Source: Candidatus Diapherotrites archaeon | GTDB taxonomy: Archaea > Iainarchaeota > Iainarchaeia > Iainarchaeales > 1-14-0-10-31-34 | Assembly: GCA_040755695.1 (NCBI GenBank) | Contig: JBFMAK010000002.1 | Span: 124,001-188,000, forward strand | DNA: 64,000 nt | Direction: 5' to 3' | Notes under the pieces: model-generated | The model's input: the letters and a program-made list of their open reading frames with translations, nothing else | What the model was told of the DNA's origin: nothing | Database searches by the model: none | Translations under genes and position numbers: made by a program | Part shown: positions 50,422 to 61,175 of the stretch, piece by piece | Layout of the letters: every line of letters starts with the position of its first letter | Numbering within the stretch: the first letter of the stretch is position 1

Positions 50422-50826
50422 ATGAAGGCAAAAGGACAGGTTGCACTGGAGTACTTGTTCCTTACAGTGCTGCTGCTCATAATTGTAGGAATACTTTTCG
50501 TTTACTCTCTTGTAATCTACAATGACTCCCTGAATTCAAGCAAGGCACAGAATTACGTCCAGCAATTAGCAAATGCAGCAGACCAGGCTAGCGCCTGGGG
50601 CCCAGGAACAAAATTATACGTTGAAGCAGAACTGCCTGGTGGGGTGCAGTCTGTAATAGCAACAAACAAGAGCATTACAGTGAAAGTGCAAATGCTGGGA
50701 GGAGTAAGCGACATATACACCTTCACAAAAGCAGACATTACGCCAGTGAGCCTTCCGACAACACAAGGCCTGCAGGCATTAAAGGTTGAAATGGTTGACG
50801 CAAACATTGTCATAAGCACTGCATAA
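50422..50826 (+). CDS. Pilin-like protein with class III signal peptide
   Basis: 134 aa. The N terminus MKAKGQVALEYLFLTVLLLI is a class III (prepilin) signal: a short basic leader, cut after KG by an EppA/PibD-type peptidase, with the conserved Gln and Glu before the hydrophobic helix. The remaining ~100 residues are an extracellular beta-rich head. It is the first gene of the pilus cluster. AAGGTGCAGGAG lies just before the ATG, and a TATA-like AATAAATTTTTATG is further upstream. Confidence 0.88.
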   Translation: MKAKGQVALEYLFLTVLLLIIVGILFVYSLVIYNDSLNSSKAQNYVQQLANAADQASAWGPGTKLYVEAELPGGVQSVIATNKSITVKVQMLGGVSDIYTFTKADITPVSLPTTQGLQALKVEMVDANIVISTA

Positions 50827-50853: not shown

Positions 50854-51216
50854 ATGAGGAGAGGACAGATTTCAGTTGAATTACTGGTTGCATTATTTAT
50901 TGTGGCATTCATTTTCGTGCTAATGGTGGTGAGCGTAAGCGAAAGAAATGCAATAAGAGACTTGTACAAAGAGCAGGCAGGAAAAGAAAACGAATGCAAA
51001 AGAATTTCCTTAACCCTTTCAGCAATTGCAACAAACTCAAAGAAGACAACAGTGAATTTTACTGCCTACAAGGATTTCAGTGTAACAGGAAACATTGTGG
51101 ACGTGAATGGAACATACTGCTATTTTGTGGGCACTGCAGAAAGCCCAGGCTCTTACACTAAAGGAGAAATTCAGGCTGTTGCAATTGATGGAAATATAAG
51201 CTTGAGCAATGTGTAA
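50854..51216 (+). CDS. Second pilin-like protein with class III signal
   Basis: 120 aa. Leader MRRGQISVELLVALFIVAFI, with cleavage expected between Gly4 and Gln5 and the conserved Glu at mature +5. The head has Cys residues (NECKR and TYCYF) that may form a disulfide. AAGGGGAAAGGAAGAG precedes the ATG. It lies 27 nt after the first pilin-like gene. Confidence 0.85.
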   Translation: MRRGQISVELLVALFIVAFIFVLMVVSVSERNAIRDLYKEQAGKENECKRISLTLSAIATNSKKTTVNFTAYKDFSVTGNIVDVNGTYCYFVGTAESPGSYTKGEIQAVAIDGNISLSNV

Positions 51217-51243
51217 GTGAATGAAAAAATTTGAGTGAAAAAA

Positions 51244-51759
51244 ATGCTGAACAGAAAAGGCCAGAGCATAATGCTTGACTTGATTTTCGCGATAACAGTA
51301 TTCACCATAATCTCAACATTCCTTTTGGATTCATATGACAGGGACCTTATGGGAATAACAAAAGGCCAGACAATGGATGAACTGCAACAGAAAGCATTTA
51401 CAGCAACAGAAGCCTTAGTAAAAACAAAGGGCCTTCCAGAAAACTGGAATGAAATCAGCTTGAATAGTGTAGAACAGTTCGGGTTGCTTGCAAGGCAGGG
51501 GCAGTTGAGCGAAAGCAAAGTGAATTATTTTATGGGGTTGATTGACTGCAATACAGAAATTAATTCTAATTACAGTAAATCAAAGGAAATAATGAATTTA
51601 GGGCTCTTTGATTATTTTTTCAACCTGCATAACGTAACAAATGACCTGAACGCAGGATGCAATCCTTCTGTTGATGCAGACATTGTGGCTGCAAGAAGGG
51701 TGGTTAACTACAATGGAAGTGAAGCAATTGTTACATTCAAAGTGTACAAGATCAGGTAA
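51244..51759 (+). CDS. Third class III signal protein of the pilus cluster
   Basis: 171 aa from the ATG at MLNRKGQSIMLDL; a GTG three codons upstream is within the ribosome site and rejected. The leader has KG followed by QSIMLDLIFAITVFTIISTF, a class III signal with Asp instead of Glu at mature +6. The exterior has Cys residues (IDCNTE and NAGCNPS). It shares 47 nt with the next gene's start, an unusually long overlap. Confidence 0.82.
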   Translation: MLNRKGQSIMLDLIFAITVFTIISTFLLDSYDRDLMGITKGQTMDELQQKAFTATEALVKTKGLPENWNEISLNSVEQFGLLARQGQLSESKVNYFMGLIDCNTEINSNYSKSKEIMNLGLFDYFFNLHNVTNDLNAGCNPSVDADIVAARRVVNYNGSEAIVTFKVYKIR

Positions 51760-54532
51760 TGGAAGCAAGGGCTTTGCATTCACATTAGATGTAGTATTAG
51801 CATTAATCCTTTTCTTAGGGCTGATAATTACAGCAAAAAGTGTTGCCTTCAGCAATCCAAGCACAAACCTTTCAAAAACCCAGTTAATGCAGTTGAGCCA
51901 TGAAAGCTTCCAGGCAATGGACAGCACAGGATTCATTCTAACACAGATTGACGCAAACTACCTTGACTCAGCAAACCAGATTCACGCAAAAGCCCAAAGC
52001 CTTCTTCCATCAAACCTTGACATGAATGTAAGCATAAAACAGTACACTGCAATCACAAGCAGCACTTGCAGGAGCACAAAAAATTTTTCTGACTGCTTTC
52101 CTGACGCAAACACCCTCACAGTAAGTTCAGGGACTGCAATACCAGCAAACAAGGAATTGATTCACGGAAGAAAGATTTACGTAAAAAAACAGCCTCCAGC
52201 AGACTGCAATACAAGCGTCCAATTAAGCCCTGCAGTAATTCCGGCAATTCCTGCAACAAAGAAATGGAATTCCTATTTACAAAAATACTTCAGCAACCTA
52301 AACAAACCATTGATTTTATACTTCCAGTCCCCGCAAGACCTAAATCTAACATTTGATGTGAATGTGAACCCGAGCAACTTCATTGAATGCGACCAAAACA
52401 TTGATGTTAACTTGAGTATAAGCGTGCCTTCAAATGTAAGGAAAGCAGTAGACATGATGCTTGTAATAGACAGGAGCGGTTCAATGAGCTGGAATGGAAG
52501 AGTAAGCACAACTAATGCGCAAGGATTGGATATAGATGGAAGCTATGTTTACTTTGCAGACGGGTGGGCAGGATTAAGAGACATTAATGTGCTTAACCCA
52601 TTGCTACCAAACCTTGTTGGAACATATAATACGCCTGGAACAGCATACAATGTGGACAAGAATGGAATTTATGCTTATATGGCAGACGGGTGGTGGGGAT
52701 TAAGAATAGTGAATGTAAGCAATCCTGCTTCGCCGAGCAGCACCGGAAGCTATAACAGTCCAGGGACAGCTTATGGGGTTGCATACGATAATAGTTATGC
52801 TTATCTTGCGGATGGTGGCAGCGGACTGCAAGTAGTGAATGTAAGTAACCCTGCAAATCCTTCACAGACAGGCAACTATAATACTCCAGGAACATCATAT
52901 CAGGTTGCAGTGAGCGGAAATTACGCGTACGTGGCAGACGGAACAAGCGGGCTGAGAATAGTGAATATTACGAATAAAAGCAATCCAACCTCACAGGGAA
53001 GTGTTGGAACAAGCAATGCACAGGACATTGTATTGCAAGGGAATTACGCTTATGTGGCAGACGGAAGTGCTGGCTTGAGGGTAATAAATGTAAGCAATCC
53101 TTCCTCCCCTACAATTTCAGGGACTTATAATACGCCAGGCACTGCTTATGGGATTGACATAGTGGACACAAATGCTTATGTTGCAGACAATACGGGTGGA
53201 CTGCAAATAATTGATGTAAGCAATCCTGCTGCTCCTTCACTGCTCAGGAATATTCCTACGCCTTATGCTTTCTATGATGTGAGAGTGAGCGGGAATTTCG
53301 CTTATTTAGCTACAAATATGGGATTGATTACCTTGGATTTAATTAACGGGACAAAAATGGATTCAACAAAGACTTCAGCCAATTCATTCATTGACTTCAA
53401 TGAATGGAAGCCAAGAGACCAATTAGGCATTTCCTCCTTTAATACTTCAGCAACATTAAACAGCCAGCTAAGGCACTTGGATGACGCAAACAAGAATACA
53501 TTGCATGGAGTAATTAATGGCCTTGTGGCAGGCGGAGGCACAGACATTGAGTCAGGCATAAGGAATGCAACAACAGAGCTCACTTCAATTAGGGCAAACC
53601 CTTCGGCCAGAAAATTTCAGGTTCTCCTTTCGGATGGCCAATCAACTGAAGGAGACTCAGCTGATGCTGCAAGGGATGCAAACACTGCAGGAATAACAAT
53701 TTACACAATAGGATACGGAGCAGACGCAAGCGAGTCGGAATTGAGGAATATAGCGAATTTGACTGACGGAAACTATTATTTTGCCTCAGACGCAAACGCC
53801 CTCAGGGACATCTATAATATGATTGCATTAAAGATACAGGAGCAGGCTAGCGCTGCAACAGTATTTGTTGAAAACGAAGGCTCAATCATTTCAGTAGACC
53901 AGAACGCCCAAATTGTTGATGGAAACTTAATTTTCACTGCAGGAAACATTGGACCGAACAGCCCGTGGGCAGGCCATTATACTGTAAGGTTTGACTGTAA
54001 CACCAATTTCGCTTGCGAGGACACAGCAATAACCTTCCCTGGGCCGGGATCATACTTCTCTTATATTGACGAGAACGGGAACACACAGAATGTTCCCTGG
54101 GACCTGAATTCAACCAAAACCCTGCCATTAAAGAGCAGGGACCTCTCAATCGACATTATAAGAGGAGAAATCGCAGGAGAGAACGAATTGTACTTGGATG
54201 TAAATGCAGCAAATATTGGAGATTTGAATACGGGGGCAACAATAGTTAATTTTTATGTAGGGCAGGACAGCAATTGCAGTACAGGAAGCCTTCTTGCGCC
54301 GCCCTCTCCATTGAATGTAATTCCATTGTGCGGGGCAAAAAATTTGGACTGCAATCAATTCTATGTTTACTGGCCTTCAGTGAACGTTGCCTCTGAAGGA
54401 ATAATATGCGCCAAAATAAACGAGGACAAGGCAATAAGGGAATGCCCTCTGCACAACATTGACTCAATTAATTGTTATCTCAGGCCGAAAATTTATTATT
54501 ATGTGTTAGACTACTGGGTGTGGCAGAAATGA
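51713..54532 (+). CDS. Large VWA protein with inserted LVIVD beta-propeller
   Basis: 939 aa from the ATG preceded by GGGTGG, starting inside the previous gene. The leader ends SKGFAFTLDVVLALILFLGL, a class III-type signal with cleavage after KG. A VWA domain begins with the MIDAS motif DRSGSM (253-258) and is interrupted at once by seven LVIVD-type repeats (about 265-545), then resumes at TKMDSTKTSANSFIDF and runs on through GGGTDI and LLSDGQS to about 705. The C-terminal ~230 residues are beta-rich with several Cys. The whole chain except the signal should be outside the cell. It is the likely adhesin or large pilin-like subunit of this system. Confidence 0.85.
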   Translation: MEVKQLLHSKCTRSGNGSKGFAFTLDVVLALILFLGLIITAKSVAFSNPSTNLSKTQLMQLSHESFQAMDSTGFILTQIDANYLDSANQIHAKAQSLLPSNLDMNVSIKQYTAITSSTCRSTKNFSDCFPDANTLTVSSGTAIPANKELIHGRKIYVKKQPPADCNTSVQLSPAVIPAIPATKKWNSYLQKYFSNLNKPLILYFQSPQDLNLTFDVNVNPSNFIECDQNIDVNLSISVPSNVRKAVDMMLVIDRSGSMSWNGRVSTTNAQGLDIDGSYVYFADGWAGLRDINVLNPLLPNLVGTYNTPGTAYNVDKNGIYAYMADGWWGLRIVNVSNPASPSSTGSYNSPGTAYGVAYDNSYAYLADGGSGLQVVNVSNPANPSQTGNYNTPGTSYQVAVSGNYAYVADGTSGLRIVNITNKSNPTSQGSVGTSNAQDIVLQGNYAYVADGSAGLRVINVSNPSSPTISGTYNTPGTAYGIDIVDTNAYVADNTGGLQIIDVSNPAAPSLLRNIPTPYAFYDVRVSGNFAYLATNMGLITLDLINGTKMDSTKTSANSFIDFNEWKPRDQLGISSFNTSATLNSQLRHLDDANKNTLHGVINGLVAGGGTDIESGIRNATTELTSIRANPSARKFQVLLSDGQSTEGDSADAARDANTAGITIYTIGYGADASESELRNIANLTDGNYYFASDANALRDIYNMIALKIQEQASAATVFVENEGSIISVDQNAQIVDGNLIFTAGNIGPNSPWAGHYTVRFDCNTNFACEDTAITFPGPGSYFSYIDENGNTQNVPWDLNSTKTLPLKSRDLSIDIIRGEIAGENELYLDVNAANIGDLNTGATIVNFYVGQDSNCSTGSLLAPPSPLNVIPLCGAKNLDCNQFYVYWPSVNVASEGIICAKINEDKAIRECPLHNIDSINCYLRPKIYYYVLDYWVWQK
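52513..53350 (+). repeat. Seven LVIVD-type repeats coding for a beta-propeller
   Basis: Tandem protein repeats of about 38-40 residues share the core YAYVADG.sGLrivNVSNP.sP. I count seven: YVYFADGWAGL, YAYMADGWWGL, YAYLADGGSGL, YAYVADGTSGL, YAYVADGSAGL, NAYVADNTGGL and FAYLATNMGLI. Seven blades make a closed propeller. The DNA copies are similar but not identical, so the expansion is not recent. Confidence 0.85.
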
Positions 54533-54566
54533 TTTCAAATTTAAGAAAGGAGAAAATTTAAATGAA
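54527..54566 (+). promoter_or_regulatory. Leader/overlap element shared with 56856-56966
   Basis: AAATGATTTCAAATTT, then AAGAAAGGA, then GAAAATTTAAATGAA. It spans the TGA stop of the VWA gene and the ATG of the next gene. AAATTT arms flank the AAAGGAG ribosome site, so the site could lie in a hairpin loop. The two outer blocks (16 and 15 nt) recur exactly around the hairpin array 2.3 kb downstream. Confidence 0.5.
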
Positions 54567-55593
54567 AGAGAAAGGAGTATTGTTCACTGTAATGATTTTC
54601 ATTATAGCATTAGCTTTAATTGACTTGATCAACTTTGCAAACCAGCAGAAGAATTCATCTGAAGGAATAGCAGCAGAAATCTCTGGAGTAAAGGCAGTGA
54701 ACAACAAATTTGAAAACCTTTACTCTGACATAATAGATTATTACAGGACAGGAAGCGCAAAAGCATTCAGGCAGTCCTTAATCCCATTCAGTTATGAGTT
54801 GGATGAAAACAGCTTTAAGGCTGTAATAGACCTTCCTGCAAGAAAAGGCACAAGAGACGGATTCTTTGACGTAATAAACACATTCAAGGTATTCGCAGAA
54901 GACCAGAACTACAGCAGGAATTATGATGGCATAAAAATTCAAGCAGAAACTGTAAGGAATGCAGCATGGGGAAGCCAAGACACAAACGAACTGGCTTTCA
55001 TGTTGGGGCCTGCGTGCCTTTCATTCAAGGTAATAGACTTGAACCAAGCAGGATTTGAAGGTTCTCCAATAAACAATTCATGCAGCACCCAATTCAATGT
55101 GAACAGCCTCCAAAGAATAGACTTGAATATAATAATAAAAGAGCCAATAGAAGACTACAACAGAATTGAATGCCACTTCCCAGACTTCAATGGAGGAACA
55201 GGATGCCCGCAGGAAGCCTTTGACTCACTGAACCCGAATCCTTACATAAAAATAGACTTTAATTCAAGCGCCTGCATACAAAAATGCTCAGGAGACCTAA
55301 ACCAGGCAATAGTAAGCATAAGCCACCACTTTGACCCAAGCCAAGACTTTAATGTTGAAATGAAATGCCTTGCAGGGGCAAGCCAATGCAATTCAATTGA
55401 GCCAGTAACAATCAACTGGTTCAGCATTAATGCCTATGATAAGGGAATAACTGCAGAGCACAGGGGAAACAAGCAGGTGAGAATTGAAATGAAAGCAACC
55501 TTAAAGCAGGCAATAAATTCCTTTGAATTCAAAGACTTCAATTTCACTGCAACAACAAGCACTTTCTCTATAATACAAACAAACAAGAAGTGA
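54562..55593 (+). CDS. Membrane-anchored extracellular protein of pilus cluster
   Basis: 343 aa. N terminus MKEKGVLFTVMIFIIALALI: a short Lys leader with KG, then a hydrophobic helix, resembling a class III signal or an uncleaved anchor. The exterior is Cys-containing (ACLSF, NSCST, IECHF, TGCPQ, SACIQKC, MKCLAG and SQCNS) and otherwise has no recognised domain. The ribosome site AAAGGAG is 9 nt upstream. Its place between the VWA and FN3 genes suggests a minor pilin or assembly component, by inference. Confidence 0.72.
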   Translation: MKEKGVLFTVMIFIIALALIDLINFANQQKNSSEGIAAEISGVKAVNNKFENLYSDIIDYYRTGSAKAFRQSLIPFSYELDENSFKAVIDLPARKGTRDGFFDVINTFKVFAEDQNYSRNYDGIKIQAETVRNAAWGSQDTNELAFMLGPACLSFKVIDLNQAGFEGSPINNSCSTQFNVNSLQRIDLNIIIKEPIEDYNRIECHFPDFNGGTGCPQEAFDSLNPNPYIKIDFNSSACIQKCSGDLNQAIVSISHHFDPSQDFNVEMKCLAGASQCNSIEPVTINWFSINAYDKGITAEHRGNKQVRIEMKATLKQAINSFEFKDFNFTATTSTFSIIQTNKK

Positions 55594-55603
55594 AAGAAAA
55601 AAA

Positions 55604-56797
55604 ATGAGCGCAAAAATTTTCATTGCAATAGTTTTAGTTGGAATAATAATTGCGGGAGCAATTGTATTTAGCATAAAACAGAAAGGCCCTGAAACAGCAA
55701 TTAATACAGCAACAGTAGAAGACTACTTCAGGCTGACAGCCCAAAAAAATGCACTGGCGGGAGAAGAATTTACGGTAAAAATTGAAGCAAGAGAAGAAAA
55801 AGGAATAAAAAAAATAAACTATGAATCAACAGCAACAAAAAAAGAAATTCTTTGCGGGCAAAAAGAATGCGGCATAGAAATAAAAGAAAAGATAAGCCAG
55901 GAAGGAATATTTGAATTAAAGGCAGTCCTGACAAACAATTCAGGGGAACAAAAAACACAGAAAACAATCATTTCAATTTCAAAGGCAAGAGGCTGCAATG
56001 AAACAAAAAACCAGGAATGCAGCGCGCAAAAGCCATTCTACTGCGAAAACGGAATATTAATTGAAAACTGCATTAAATGCGGCTGTACTGGCGGAAAATG
56101 CAATCCAAGCACAGGCAAATGCATTGAAGCAGGAGAAGAAAATTATCTTCTTTCAATAAACTCAATTAACTCAAGCCCTTACGCACAGCCGGGAAATGCA
56201 ATCACAATAGAAATAGACCTAATCAATGACTCAGGTAAGAAAACCACTGCAGGAGGAAAATACCTGCTGGAAATAAACTTTAAGGGGAATGAAAGCATTA
56301 CAAACACATATTCATTCGGCCTAAACAAAGACCTCCAACCAGAAGAAAAGGCAGGAATTGAAGTAAAAGAAAAAGACAATTCAGGCAAAAACTTCACAAT
56401 CACAAGAGAAGGAACCTACACCACAAGCGCAATACTATACTTGCTGGAAGACAACAACAAAACAAAATTAAGCGAATTAAGCCAAGGACAAATAACAATA
56501 AGGAATGACTCAAGCCCTCCCTCAGCCCCAACAGGGCTCAAAGCAGCAAGAAATGGAAACATAATCACCTTACAGTGGAATTCAAACACGGAAGAAGACC
56601 TGAAAGAATACAAGGTATATGAAAGCACAAGCATTCAGGCAGGATACATTGCATACTCCTACAAAAAAAGCGTCGGAAAAGAAAACACAACAACAGAAAT
56701 GAGTGAAGATTCAAACCAAGAAATATATTTCGTTATAACAGCATTAGATTACTTCGGCAACGAGTCAGGCTACAGCAACATAGCAAAAACTTCATAA
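55604..56797 (+). CDS. Fibronectin type III extracellular protein
   Basis: 397 aa. One N-terminal transmembrane helix (IFIAIVLVGIIIAGAIVFSI) is followed by an extracellular beta domain, a Cys-rich knot at about 130-170 (SAQKPFYCENG then CIKCGCTGGKCNPSTGKC), a CARDB-like stretch, and a C-terminal FN3 domain (SAPTGLKAARNGNIITLQWN ... VYESTSIQAGYI ... YFVITALDYFGNESGYS). It probably displays binding modules outside the cell. It lies 10 nt after the previous gene and is the last before the hairpin array. Confidence 0.82.
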   Translation: MSAKIFIAIVLVGIIIAGAIVFSIKQKGPETAINTATVEDYFRLTAQKNALAGEEFTVKIEAREEKGIKKINYESTATKKEILCGQKECGIEIKEKISQEGIFELKAVLTNNSGEQKTQKTIISISKARGCNETKNQECSAQKPFYCENGILIENCIKCGCTGGKCNPSTGKCIEAGEENYLLSINSINSSPYAQPGNAITIEIDLINDSGKKTTAGGKYLLEINFKGNESITNTYSFGLNKDLQPEEKAGIEVKEKDNSGKNFTITREGTYTTSAILYLLEDNNKTKLSELSQGQITIRNDSSPPSAPTGLKAARNGNIITLQWNSNTEEDLKEYKVYESTSIQAGYIAYSYKKSVGKENTTTEMSEDSNQEIYFVITALDYFGNESGYSNIAKTS

Positions 56798-56855: not shown

Positions 56856-56966
56856 AAATGATTTCAAATTTCAGAAGAAAATTTGAAAGAGTTTCAAAGC
56901 AAAGCTTTGAAAATTTTCAAGCAAAGCTTGAAACATATTTAAATTTCAGGGGAAAATTTAAATGAA
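56856..56966 (+). promoter_or_regulatory. Four tandem hairpins in the leader of the winged-helix gene
   Basis: Four perfect stem-loops in series. The first, TTTCAAATTT/AAATTTGAAA, occupies 56862-56888 with a 7-nt loop. The second, TTTCAAAGC/GCTTTGAAA, occupies 56892-56912 with an AAA loop. The third, TTTCAAGC/GCTTGAAA, occupies 56915-56933 with an AAA loop. The fourth, ATTTAAATTT/AAATTTAAAT, occupies 56937-56963 with loop CAGGGGA. The last stem includes the first two bases of the ATG, while the GGGG ribosome site sits in its loop. Hairpins 2 and 3 are near-copies, and so are the cores of 1 and 4. Confidence 0.7.
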
Positions 56967-58752
56967 CAAAAATAATTCAAACAACAAGGAAAAAGAAATT
57001 GAACTCCTCTTACAGCTTGCTGAGCTGCAGAAAATCCAGACACGCAAAAAGAAAGGAATAGGGAATATTTTTTCGGGAATAGCAAGCCTGTTTAAGGGAA
57101 AAAAGGCAGACAAAGAAGCACAGGAAAGGCAGAAATACCCGGAAAAGGTAAAGGGGCTCCAAGAAGAAGAAATCAAAAAAGAAATAATGAAGAAAATGCA
57201 GGAAATAGAAGAGTACGAAAAAAAGCACGGGAAGAACAAAAAGGTGGAAGAAAGCATAGGAAAACTCAAGCAAATAATCAAAACATTGGAAGAAATGGAA
57301 ACGAAAAAGTCAGCGGAAATAAAATTTGAGCCAAAGGAAGAAATTTCAGCAGAAAAAGAGTTTGCAGAACTCATGAAAGAACTTGAAAAAAAAGAAGAAA
57401 AAGCTCCAGAAGAAGAAAAGCCTGCAATAGAAGAAAAAGGGGAAATAACGAAAGAAGAACCTGAAAAAAAGAAGGAAGTTGCAAAAAGAAAGAAAAAGAA
57501 AAGAAAAATCATAAAGAAGAAAAAAAGAAAAAAACACAAAAAAAGGAGAAAAAGAAAAATTGCTGAAACCAAGAAAAGAAAGAAACCAAAGAAAAGAAAA
57601 AAGAGAAAAATAAAAGCAGCAAAAAAAGAAAAGGAAGAAATAACGGAAGAACCACAAAAATTCTTTTATTCTGAGCAGCCTTCATTCCAGCAGGCGCAGC
57701 CTTCAGCTGAAACAGTTGGAGAAGACTTTGAGACACAGCTGGAAGTAGCAAAAGAAAAAATAAAGAACCTTGAAAAAGCATACCTGACAAGGCAGATAAC
57801 AGAAGAAGAGTACAGGATGAAGCTGTTTGAATACAACGAAGAAATAAAAATAATTGAATTAAAGAAAAGAAAAGCAGAAGAAGCAAAAAGAAAGGAAGAG
57901 AAAGAGGAGAAAGCATATGCTGTCCAAGCAAAAAAAGAGGAAAAACCTTTTGTGGGGAGATATGTACCAGGAAAGCCTTTAAGCGAAGGAGAAGCAAAAA
58001 GGCTCAAGGCATTAGAGCAATTCCACAAGGAGTTCACTGCAGAGGAAGCGGCAAGAAGGAGGGAAAGCGAAACCCTCTTTGAAAGAGCAGAAAGGGGAAG
58101 GGCAATAGACTCAGTGATTGAAGAAAAAGTGAGGGGAAAGGTGGATGAAGAAAAACTTAAATCAATAGAAGAAAAAGTAAAAGTTTTGGCTGAAAAATAC
58201 AATATATCAAAAGAGGAGATAGAAAGGAATGTTCAAAAATTGGACACTACAAAACTCCTCACAAACTTTGACAAGCTCATAAGCCTGCTTGAATTAGAAC
58301 ACAAAGCCCACACCGTAAAGGAGGCCCCGCTGGAGTTGGACAAGGCCTTTGTGGGCGAAGTAAAAAAAGAGGAAGTGAAAGGCACACTCAAAGAAATAAA
58401 GAAGTACAGGATTGTGACAGACTACGACAAGATACTGAATTACGTGAACGAGAAAGGAATTGTGAAGAAAGGGGAATTAGGAAAGGAATTAGGAATAAAG
58501 GACTCTGCAGTAAAGCAGTGCTGTGAAACCTTAGAAGAAAGCGGGCTCATCAGAATAGAGTATCCCCCATTAGGCGACGCAAAAATAGTGTCAGTCTCAT
58601 TCGAAGAAAAGAAAAAAGAGAAAACCGAAGAAGAAACACAAGGCAGAGAAAAAGAAAAGATAATAATCGGGGGCTCAGAAGAAGCAGAAACCAAGAAAGG
58701 AGACTTGGAAAGGAAAAGGGAATTAAGGGAATTAATCAAAGGAAAGAAGTGA
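56962..58752 (+). CDS. Lys/Arg/Glu-rich protein with C-terminal winged helix
   Basis: 596 aa. No family recognised. The first ~170 residues are helical and charged. A very basic segment (about 171-235, long runs of KRKKKKRK type) follows, then a coiled-coil region to about 480 with Lys/Glu heptads. A winged-helix domain closes it (DYDKILNYVNEKGIVKKGEL then GKELGIKDSAVKQCCETLEE and SGLIRIEYPPLGDAKIV). No membrane segment or signal is present, so it is cytoplasmic. It lies 13 nt before the pilus ATPase. The basic stretch plus winged helix suggest nucleic-acid binding. A link between DNA and the pilus is an inference. Confidence 0.75.
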   Translation: MNKNNSNNKEKEIELLLQLAELQKIQTRKKKGIGNIFSGIASLFKGKKADKEAQERQKYPEKVKGLQEEEIKKEIMKKMQEIEEYEKKHGKNKKVEESIGKLKQIIKTLEEMETKKSAEIKFEPKEEISAEKEFAELMKELEKKEEKAPEEEKPAIEEKGEITKEEPEKKKEVAKRKKKKRKIIKKKKRKKHKKRRKRKIAETKKRKKPKKRKKRKIKAAKKEKEEITEEPQKFFYSEQPSFQQAQPSAETVGEDFETQLEVAKEKIKNLEKAYLTRQITEEEYRMKLFEYNEEIKIIELKKRKAEEAKRKEEKEEKAYAVQAKKEEKPFVGRYVPGKPLSEGEAKRLKALEQFHKEFTAEEAARRRESETLFERAERGRAIDSVIEEKVRGKVDEEKLKSIEEKVKVLAEKYNISKEEIERNVQKLDTTKLLTNFDKLISLLELEHKAHTVKEAPLELDKAFVGEVKKEEVKGTLKEIKKYRIVTDYDKILNYVNEKGIVKKGELGKELGIKDSAVKQCCETLEESGLIRIEYPPLGDAKIVSVSFEEKKKEKTEEETQGREKEKIIIGGSEEAETKKGDLERKRELRELIKGKK

Positions 58753-58765
58753 AAAAGGGGAAAAA

Positions 58766-60286
58766 ATGAAGGAAAAAACTCTTGAATCATACCAGACTGA
58801 AACAGACAATGTGCTGGTTGAAGTGAACGTAATAGAAAGAGAAGACGCTTATGTAAGGCTCTATTACTTGAATTTCCCTGATGTGGGTGCAGGAACTAAG
58901 GCATTAATGCAGAACCTGAAGATGAGCATTATTGCTGATGCCTCAATCAAGGCAGAAAGGATGATGGACCCAAAATTCATTAAAGCACTCAAGGAAAAAT
59001 TTAACAGCAGGGCTGAAGCAGTCCTGGGAAAAGAGGTTCCGGACATGGACTCAAACACAAAGGCAATACTAATCTGCCTTTTACTGCAGGAAATGCTTGG
59101 GCTAGGGAAAATTGAATTCCTGCTCAATGACGCGAATCTGGAGGAAATAGTAATCAACTGCTCTAGTGAACCAGTCTGGGTATACCACAAGAAATGGGGC
59201 TGGCTCAAAACAAATGTTATACTTCAGTCAGAAGAAGAAATACAGAACTATGCAAGCATTATAGCAAGGAGGATAGGAAAACAGATAACAATTTTAAGCC
59301 CGTTACTGGACGCGCACTTGATAACAGGGGACAGGGCTAATGCAACCTTATTCCCCATTTCAAGCAAGGGAAACACTATAACAATAAGAAGATTCAAGAG
59401 AGACCCTTGGACTATTGTGGACTTCATTGAAACAAAGACTGCAACGCCTGAAACACTTGCCTTGCTCTGGATGGCCATTGAGTACGAATTGAATATCATA
59501 TTCAGTGGAGGCACTGGTTCAGGAAAAACAACTGCAATAAATGTCTGCATGCCGTTCATCCAGCCCAACAACAGGATAATAAGCATTGAAGACACAAGAG
59601 AACTCACGCTCGCAAAGCACATGCACTGGGTTCCATTAACTACAAGAGAGCCAAATGTGGAGGGAAAAGGCGCAGTGCAAATGCTGGACCTCCTAGTCAA
59701 TTCCTTGAGAATGAGGCCTGACAGGATAATTGTAGGGGAAATAAGAAGGGAGAGAGAGGCGGAAGTAATGTTTGAAGCAATGCATACTGGTCACAGCGTT
59801 TACACTACAGTCCATGCCAATACAGCAGACGAAACAATAAGAAGACTGATCAACCCCCCAATCAATATCCCAACCACAATGATGGATGCAGTGCACTTGA
59901 ATGTAGTAATGTTCAGGAATAGAAGAACTGGGGTCAGAAGAATCCTCCAGATAGCTGAATTCATTGCAGAGCAGAGGGGCGCAGAACAGGAGACAGTGAA
60001 AGCAAACGTGCTTTACAGGTGGAGGGCAACAGGAGACACCATTGGAAGACACTCTGAAAGCATAAGGCTTTTCGATGAATTAAGCCTGCACACGGGCCTA
60101 ACAATAGAGGAAATAAACCAGGAGCTTTCAGTAAAACAGAAGATAATTGAATGGATAATAAAACAGAAGATAAGGGGAATTGAAAGCATAGGAAAACTAA
60201 TGGCAGAATACTACATGGACAAGGACAAAATAATCAGCTTAATGGAAAAAAACAAAAAGCCCGAGTTTGGTGAAATAATTGAATGA
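58766..60286 (+). CDS. tadA: TadA/VirB11-type secretion ATPase
   Basis: 506 aa. Hexameric ATPase driving pilus assembly or secretion. Walker A is SGGTGSGKTT (Lys254), with the Asp box SIEDTRELTL, the His box GHSVYTTVHANTADE, and RMRPDRIIVGEIRRE as Walker B. The N-terminal ~230 residues are the usual all-alpha and beta N-domain. The family covers archaellum ArlI, TadA and Ups/Aap ATPases. Two GspF-like partners downstream point to TadA rather than ArlI. GGGG lies shortly before the ATG. Confidence 0.93.
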   Translation: MKEKTLESYQTETDNVLVEVNVIEREDAYVRLYYLNFPDVGAGTKALMQNLKMSIIADASIKAERMMDPKFIKALKEKFNSRAEAVLGKEVPDMDSNTKAILICLLLQEMLGLGKIEFLLNDANLEEIVINCSSEPVWVYHKKWGWLKTNVILQSEEEIQNYASIIARRIGKQITILSPLLDAHLITGDRANATLFPISSKGNTITIRRFKRDPWTIVDFIETKTATPETLALLWMAIEYELNIIFSGGTGSGKTTAINVCMPFIQPNNRIISIEDTRELTLAKHMHWVPLTTREPNVEGKGAVQMLDLLVNSLRMRPDRIIVGEIRREREAEVMFEAMHTGHSVYTTVHANTADETIRRLINPPINIPTTMMDAVHLNVVMFRNRRTGVRRILQIAEFIAEQRGAEQETVKANVLYRWRATGDTIGRHSESIRLFDELSLHTGLTIEEINQELSVKQKIIEWIIKQKIRGIESIGKLMAEYYMDKDKIISLMEKNKKPEFGEIIE

Positions 60287-61175
60287 AAAGAAAAGGGAAA
60301 TGATTCCATTCAGCTTCCTTCCCCCAAAAACGCTCAGGGGCATTGCAAGGCATTTCTTCAGGCAAGGCCTGTTCATATCAAAATCCTTCCCTTACCTGAA
60401 AACAGACTTGAAGCAAGCTGAAATGGATTTCGGAGACGAAGAGTACGGCGCAATAGCATTAATTCTATCAGTAGTTTATTTTTTGGTTATAAGCATAATT
60501 GTTTTTTTTGTAGCACAAAAATTCTCTCCAGAGAACGCGCTTGTATTAAGCATTACCGCAGGAGGCATTGTAGGATTCATGGTATTAATGCAAGTAATAA
60601 TGTACCCGAAAATGGCAGTAAAAAAAAAAGTAAGGGAAATTGAAAGAAACCTTGTTTTCTCATTGCGCACAATGCTAGTGCAAATAAAATCAGGCGTAAC
60701 ATTATTTGACTCAATGAACATGATAGCAGAAGGAAATTACGGGCAACTATCAAAGGAATTCAAGAAAGCAGTAGACGAAATAAACACAGGGTCATTGGAA
60801 GAAGATGCCCTGGAAAAAATTGCAGAAAACAATCCAAGCCCTTTCTTCAGGAGGAGCATCTGGCAGATAGTGAACGGAATGAAGGCAGGCGCAGACGTAA
60901 GCAATTTAATGAACGAATTAGTTTCAACAATGATTAAAGAAGAAACAATCCAGATAAGGAAGTACGGGAATGACTTAAAAATGCTCTCGTTAATGTACAT
61001 GATGATTGGAGTAATAGTGCCTGCACTAGGCCTTACCCTGTTAATAGTGCTATCATCCTTCCCGCAAATACAATTCGGAGAAATATTATTCTGGGGCCTG
61101 CTAGGATTTGTTGCATTAGGGCAGTTCATGTTTTTAGGCATAATAAAATCAAAGAGGCCAAACTTGGTTGAATGA
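60279..61175 (+). CDS. tadB: TadB/GspF-type pilus platform membrane protein
   Basis: 298 aa from a TTG start, chosen because GGTGA lies 5 nt upstream; an in-frame ATG 21 nt later is the alternative. Transmembrane segments are near 62-85, 88-112, 245-265 and 270-292. The GspF-type cytoplasmic loop contains VFSLRTMLVQIKSGVTLFDS. The start overlaps the ATPase stop. This is the inner platform on which the ATPase acts. Confidence 0.88.
   Translation: MNEKKREMIPFSFLPPKTLRGIARHFFRQGLFISKSFPYLKTDLKQAEMDFGDEEYGAIALILSVVYFLVISIIVFFVAQKFSPENALVLSITAGGIVGFMVLMQVIMYPKMAVKKKVREIERNLVFSLRTMLVQIKSGVTLFDSMNMIAEGNYGQLSKEFKKAVDEINTGSLEEDALEKIAENNPSPFFRRSIWQIVNGMKAGADVSNLMNELVSTMIKEETIQIRKYGNDLKMLSLMYMMIGVIVPALGLTLLIVLSSFPQIQFGEILFWGLLGFVALGQFMFLGIIKSKRPNLVE

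Follow-up and report, generated by a model that had tools for sequence, protein, structure and literature searches.

The closest described protein to the archaeal protein reported here is CpaL of Caulobacter crescentus, a pilin-VWA protein described in 2025 and a candidate for the tip of the Tad pilus (PMC12607857), and TadG is the backbone of predicted Tad tip complexes (PMC12075869). Both are likened to our protein by their described layout, i.e. a prepilin-like N-terminus, a VWA domain with a full MIDAS, a Tad system and a predicted tip position (PMC12607857, PMC12075869), and CpaL further shares a VWA domain split by a β-rich insert (PMC12607857). The two β-barrels inserted in CpaL occupy residues 204-383, about 40 residues past the MIDAS at 160-164 (published numbering; PMC12607857), whereas the archaeal propeller begins about 5 residues past the MIDAS, in the β1-α1 loop, and relatives hold other folds there. 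CpaL thus differs in the fold of its insert and, by the published residue numbers, in the point of insertion.

Other inserts in VWA domains are known from RrgA, GBS104 and Mfa5 (PMC7835359), which are pilus-tip VWA proteins with extra segments around the MIDAS (PMC7835359, PMC7893114). Their arms, of which none is a propeller, are placed either inside a strand or between β4 and α4 (PMC7835359); these three and SpaC, a VWA tip adhesin of other pili, are not type IV pilins (PMC7835359, PMC7893114). A pilin carrier with a VWA domain or a concanavalin-A-like lectin as grafted effector module is found in PilB and PilC of Streptococcus sanguinis (PMC8179133). In PilC/PilY1, a tip protein of type IV pili, a VWA domain and a β-propeller also occur together, but there the propeller, which belongs to family IPR008707, is C-terminal to the VWA domain, and PilC/PilY1 is no pilin (PMC8179133). 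The archaeal protein does not have this layout, its propeller being of the LVIVD type and nested in the VWA domain. Integrin α subunits with an I domain have a VWA domain inserted in a seven-bladed propeller, a similar nesting with the topology reversed.

In the open-licence literature we found no published VWA domain with a propeller in its MIDAS loop, and no paper that joins Diapherotrites, pili and von Willebrand. A first-pass annotation of this DNA had stated that no protein of this layout was described, which holds in that literature for a propeller in the MIDAS loop and fails for the split VWA domain itself, with CpaL as precedent and further inserts in RrgA, GBS104 and Mfa5. The new element is an exchangeable slot in the MIDAS loop; a split VWA domain on a Tad pilin was already known from CpaL. 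The recognition of hosts or surfaces by DPANN archaea is poorly understood; here a single variable, modular position in a conserved pilus operon provides a concrete candidate for what determines it, open to testing with expressed domains.

The pilus operon and the start of the VWA-propeller gene

Coordinates are positions in the window, i.e. the whole stretch of 64,000 nt that was analysed, from contig JBFMAK010000002.1 of a Candidatus Diapherotrites archaeon (DPANN) with a genome of 1.30 Mb (completeness 99.85%). The locus contains the following features:

50422..50826, +, pilA1, pilin with class III signal (KGQVALEY); weak PF04021 match; conserved neighbour
50854..51216, +, pilA2, small pilin-like protein; conserved neighbour
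51235..51759, +, pilA3, small pilin-like protein; 32-nt overlap with the VWA gene; conserved neighbour
51715..51722, +, Shine-Dalgarno-like GGAAGTGA inside the 3' end of the upstream pilin gene pilA3; conserved in relatives
51728..54532, +, VWA-propeller minor-pilin-like gene; TTG start from conservation in relatives; alternative ATG at 51713
51728..51844, +, prepilin-like signal SKG|FAFTLD and hydrophobic helix, from sequence; helix at 20-39 in the model, low confidence
54562..55593, +, 343-aa protein (d343) with N-terminal hydrophobic helix; conserved neighbour
55604..56797, +, 397-aa protein (d397) with N-terminal hydrophobic helix; not found in some relatives
56962..58752, +, 596-aa protein (d596), highly charged; conserved neighbour
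58766..60286, +, TadA/VirB11-like assembly ATPase; PF00437, E 1.9e-37; TIGR03819 below curated cut-off
60279..61175, +, TadB-like single-domain T2SSF membrane protein; PF00482
61191..62192, +, TadC-like single-domain T2SSF membrane protein; PF00482

A TadA-type ATPase, two single-domain TadB/TadC proteins and pilins lie in one locus, and as the TIGR03819 match falls below its curated cut-off, the system is a divergent archaeal Tad-like one. The order pilA1-pilA2-pilA3-VWA-d343-(d397)-d596-TadA-TadB-TadC is kept in Diapherotrites carrying either class of insert (see below), apart from gaps where contigs end and minor departures, e.g. L077, in which the Tad genes are on the opposite strand. This conserved pilin/Tad operon supports a pilus-borne role.

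The VWA-propeller gene probably starts at TTG 51728. Relatives keep GGAAGTGA or GGAGGCGA followed by TTG, and the upstream ATG is often absent there; the ATG at 51713 belongs to ATGGAAGTGAAGCAATTG, for which relatives have AAAGGAAGTGAAGCAGTTG or AAAGGAGGCGAGGCAATTG at the same stretch, both lacking an ATG. It is because relatives conserve the motif and the TTG without the ATG that GGAAGTGA is read as the Shine-Dalgarno sequence and TTG 51728 as the start. With this start the overlap with pilA3 is about 32 nt and not 47 nt, the figure that had been called unusual in the first-pass annotation. Neither the size nor the adjective can be retained, as overlaps of comparable size with the preceding gene recur throughout the family and are ordinary, as expected of a coupled operon.

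In a classical prepilin signal the acidic residue is at +5. The signal proposed earlier for this protein is only partly of that type: the K-G-F and the hydrophobic helix are conserved among relatives, while the acidic residue is at +6 after K-G, and the pilin fold is poorly modelled. Two prepilin peptidases of the Peptidase_A24 type are encoded elsewhere in the host genome. The displaced acidic residue and the low-confidence pilin model would also suit a surface adhesin that is anchored in the membrane by a plain hydrophobic helix and merely shares the operon, not being a pilus subunit; this we consider improbable, as the K-G-F signal is conserved even in an Aenigmatarchaeota homologue with no insert (described below) and the three genes upstream are pilin-like.

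Architecture of the VWA-propeller protein

The protein is made up of the following parts:

51863..52441, +, N-terminal pilin-like stalk region with conserved cysteines; alignment A2; model confidence low to medium
52448..52489, +, VWA strand β1 and MIDAS loop; DRSGSM at 52469-52486, with D, S and S invariant in A2
52496..53338, +, seven-bladed LVIVD propeller nested in the MIDAS loop; PF08309, E 2.6e-62; 28 strands; pLDDT about 88-97
52496, 52610, 52736, 52862, 52988, 53111, 53237, +, starts of the propeller blades
53348..53848, +, remaining VWA domain, helix α1 (TKMDSTKTSANSF) and β2 to α6; PF00092, E 5.7e-20, from profile position 14, and model
53531..53548, +, MIDAS threonine motif GGGTDI; T invariant in alignments A1 and A2
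53630..53638, +, MIDAS aspartate motif SDG; D invariant in A1 and A2
53849..54529, +, C-terminal β-rich tail with cysteines and a conserved Trp near its end; alignment A1; medium-confidence model

Residue numbers of the protein (P0001) are counted from ATG 51713, and those of the AlphaFold2 model are the P0001 numbers minus 5. In P0001, DRSGSM is at 253-258, TKMDSTK starts at 547 (53351), GGGTDI at 607 and SDG at 640, so that all five MIDAS residues (DxSxS ... T ... D) are present. The LVIVD profile matches the protein with 206 bits, and the seven LVIVD matches of the host genome all fall within this gene. The Pfam VWA match restarts at residue 546, which is profile position 14; the first 13 positions of the VWA domain, i.e. 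β1 and DRSGSM, therefore precede the propeller.

An AlphaFold2 model was built from an alignment of 11 sequences (the VWA-propeller protein and ten homologues). It runs from β1 (241-248) through 28 strands forming seven four-stranded blades to α1 (543-555) and the usual remaining VWA elements, with a mean pLDDT of about 88-97 over nearly all of model residues 241-700; once the insert is skipped, the model and PF00092 give the element order of a Rossmann-like VWA fold (β1-α1 to β6-α6). Foldseek related the propeller to WD40 proteins, e.g. the seven-bladed β-TrCP at about 2.8 Å, and the full model to VWA proteins, the pilus adhesin SpaC being among the top matches.

The propeller thus sits inside the β1-α1 (MIDAS) loop of the VWA domain, both by profile boundaries and in the predicted structure. 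That it is nested in the VWA domain after DRSGSM had been proposed from the first reading of the DNA and was borne out by the Pfam boundaries, the homologues and the confident model; the structure prediction, run as a check, returned a nested insertion and not two successive domains. The model, the boundaries of the Pfam matches and the homologue with an empty slot together rule out two domains that simply follow each other in sequence. An assembly artefact or a fusion of genes has a negligible chance of accounting for the layout, which recurs across numerous independent genomes, the complete chromosome CP010424 of AR10 among them, and is modelled with confidence. The GC composition (insert 0.44, VWA remainder 0.43, N-terminal part 0.40) shows no sign of a recent foreign origin of the propeller.

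Occupants of the MIDAS loop and a proposed role

Homologues were found in 35 of 53 genomes of the order. A profile of the C-terminal part gave homologues in 48 of 87 genomes of the phylum, a count that includes VWA paralogues. Relatives named in an organism-named scan were mostly Diapherotrites, including the complete chromosome of archaeon GW2011_AR10, together with a few MAGs labelled Micrarchaeota. No viral relatives were found among the viral contigs searched.

The comparison of inserts covered 40 genes (34 genomes) for which positions could be assigned to the MIDAS as well as to helix α1 (that of α1 being extrapolated for L057 and L059). In all 40 an insert of 118-1111 residues separates these two points; a VWA domain thus seems able to accommodate up to about 1100 residues in its MIDAS loop. 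Classified by sequence, 21 belong to a propeller group, 18 to a jelly-roll group and one to neither. The kinds of insert are a propeller, a propeller with a nested DUF4082 (L054, L020) or laminin-G domain, PPC-like jelly rolls and laminin-G repeats. Where a laminin-G domain lies within the LVIVD propeller (L055, 7338-12470; L178, 375-5405), the nesting in the VWA domain is of three levels. The jelly-roll inserts range from a lone domain to extended arrays, and one to three Laminin_G_3 domains occur in some of them. For the short jelly-roll insert, Pfam and PDB profile searches gave nothing usable and the structure model alone was informative; this model (mean pLDDT 70.6) best matched the Thermococcus subtilase Tk-SP, in what we take to be its C-terminal β-jelly-roll domain, after which came GOLD domains and, from ColG collagenase, the collagen-binding domain. 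The MIDAS is degenerate in a few members (DRSRP in L176, DRSLT in L181), so metal binding may be dispensable in some of them.

A tree was built from the protein with the insert removed; the class of insert changes on it at least 4 times, the tree being silent on gain versus loss. A single clade for all propeller-bearing genes was rejected (AU test, p = 4.6e-5), from which it follows that inserts have been swapped or lost repeatedly. One propeller gene (L175) is sister to a jelly-roll gene (L051) with support of 100/98, and the gene with DRSRP (L176, 4971-6956), which has no insert, falls among propeller genes on a quick tree. Among propeller-type members the mean pairwise identity is 40% in the insert, about 55% in the VWA remainder and 35% in the N-terminal part. 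As these inserts are no less conserved than the N-terminal part, no unusually fast divergence is claimed for them; what the family does show is change of fold between related genes.

We consider it fairly probable that the protein is a minor pilin of the TadG/CpaL kind in an archaeal Tad-like pilus, showing exchangeable binding modules with the MIDAS loop as their slot. Support for a minor pilin at the tip comes from the operon, the prepilin-like N-terminus and the two prepilin peptidases, and also from the conservation of the metal site and from inserts with binding-type folds; the tip position is probable by analogy with bacterial TadG and CpaL. The variety of binding-type domains in this loop among related archaea points to a recognition head that can be exchanged and is probably located at the pilus tip. 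The N-terminal helix would pack into the end of the filament, and the VWA domain would serve as a structural platform whose MIDAS (β1-α1) loop displays the exchangeable recognition module. By analogy with TadG, CpaL and the modular pilins PilB and PilC, the protein may bind ligands and mediate adhesion; the face or the blade loops of the seven-bladed propeller would then contact a surface ligand. LVIVD propellers have, to our knowledge, no established role in adhesion. Held at both ends beside the metal site, the propeller could also couple ligand binding or pilus tension to the metal site of the VWA domain.

A more extended version is possible but tentative: the MIDAS loop would be a dedicated docking slot in which recombination exchanges entire ligand-binding domains, even where the nesting has three levels (laminin-G in a propeller in a VWA domain), while the platform stays undisturbed; the slot would then determine the surface or host cell that the archaeon grips, and the metal site would report binding or tension.

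The better conservation of the VWA remainder than of the insert, and the place of the gene as a conserved member of an assembly operon, would agree as well with a protein that mainly initiates pilus assembly or senses force, the VWA domain and insert capping or priming the filament and signalling tension as proposed for PilY1 and CpaL, with ligand binding secondary. In line with such a role, piliation drops when CpaL is deleted, and surface sensing is stimulated even without contact (PMC12607857). However, pure assembly leaves the wide variation of the inserts in fold and length unexplained, and we regard this explanation as unlikely. Turnover of insert types, for its part, suits evasion as well as recognition, and the inserts might be spacers or decoys, e.g. 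against viruses with the pilus as receptor, diversified by evasion; that they are recurrently binding-type folds (laminin-G, collagen-binding-like jelly roll) makes this very improbable.

Further variation was seen in the family. Three loci (L050, L055, L056) have tandem pilin-VWA-343 modules, one copy being of the propeller type and the other of the jelly-roll/laminin-G type. In L054 (4160-8032) a further insertion of ~120 aa is present later in the VWA domain, separate from the one in the MIDAS loop. The VWA gene is in two ORFs in L018/L086 (737 + 256 aa) and in L058 (975 + 275 aa), possibly by frameshifts or real breaks. Several Diapherotrites genomes encode a separate second VWA protein of ~1030 aa without an insert in the MIDAS loop (L182, 2573-5683; L183, 3212-6280), with Ig-like domains in L182.

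The slot in other archaea

An operon of the same layout in an Aenigmatarchaeota locus (L092) encodes a protein of 333 aa, MKGFVFSLDALLA...PVDVILIMDRSGSMEGQKIEDAKDAAQNFVDKL, in which the VWA domain is uninterrupted. In this protein, which contains RSGSMEGQKIEDAK, the Pfam VWA match is unbroken over 1-174, i.e. the slot is empty, and the K-G-F hydrophobic signal is present here too. Splitting of a VWA domain as in CpaL is now also seen in archaea, where a range of exchangeable folds and a reference with the slot empty are available. In most other VWA proteins scanned (Methanosarcinales, other archaea and bacteria) α1 is close behind the MIDAS motif. PKD-VWA proteins of Archaeoglobus (L127, 3988-6861; L140, 3883-6867) have 336-377 aa in the MIDAS loop, judged by eye to be PPC-like repeats in L127, and two haloarchaeal proteins (L097, L101) have 51-80 aa, so that the slot is used outside Diapherotrites as well. 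Among the loci examined, a propeller in the slot was found only in those of the Diapherotrites type. The VWA proteins of Methanosarcinales in L091, L093, L096 and L100 are ~1850-2000 aa long and have two DRSGSM motifs 22 residues apart.
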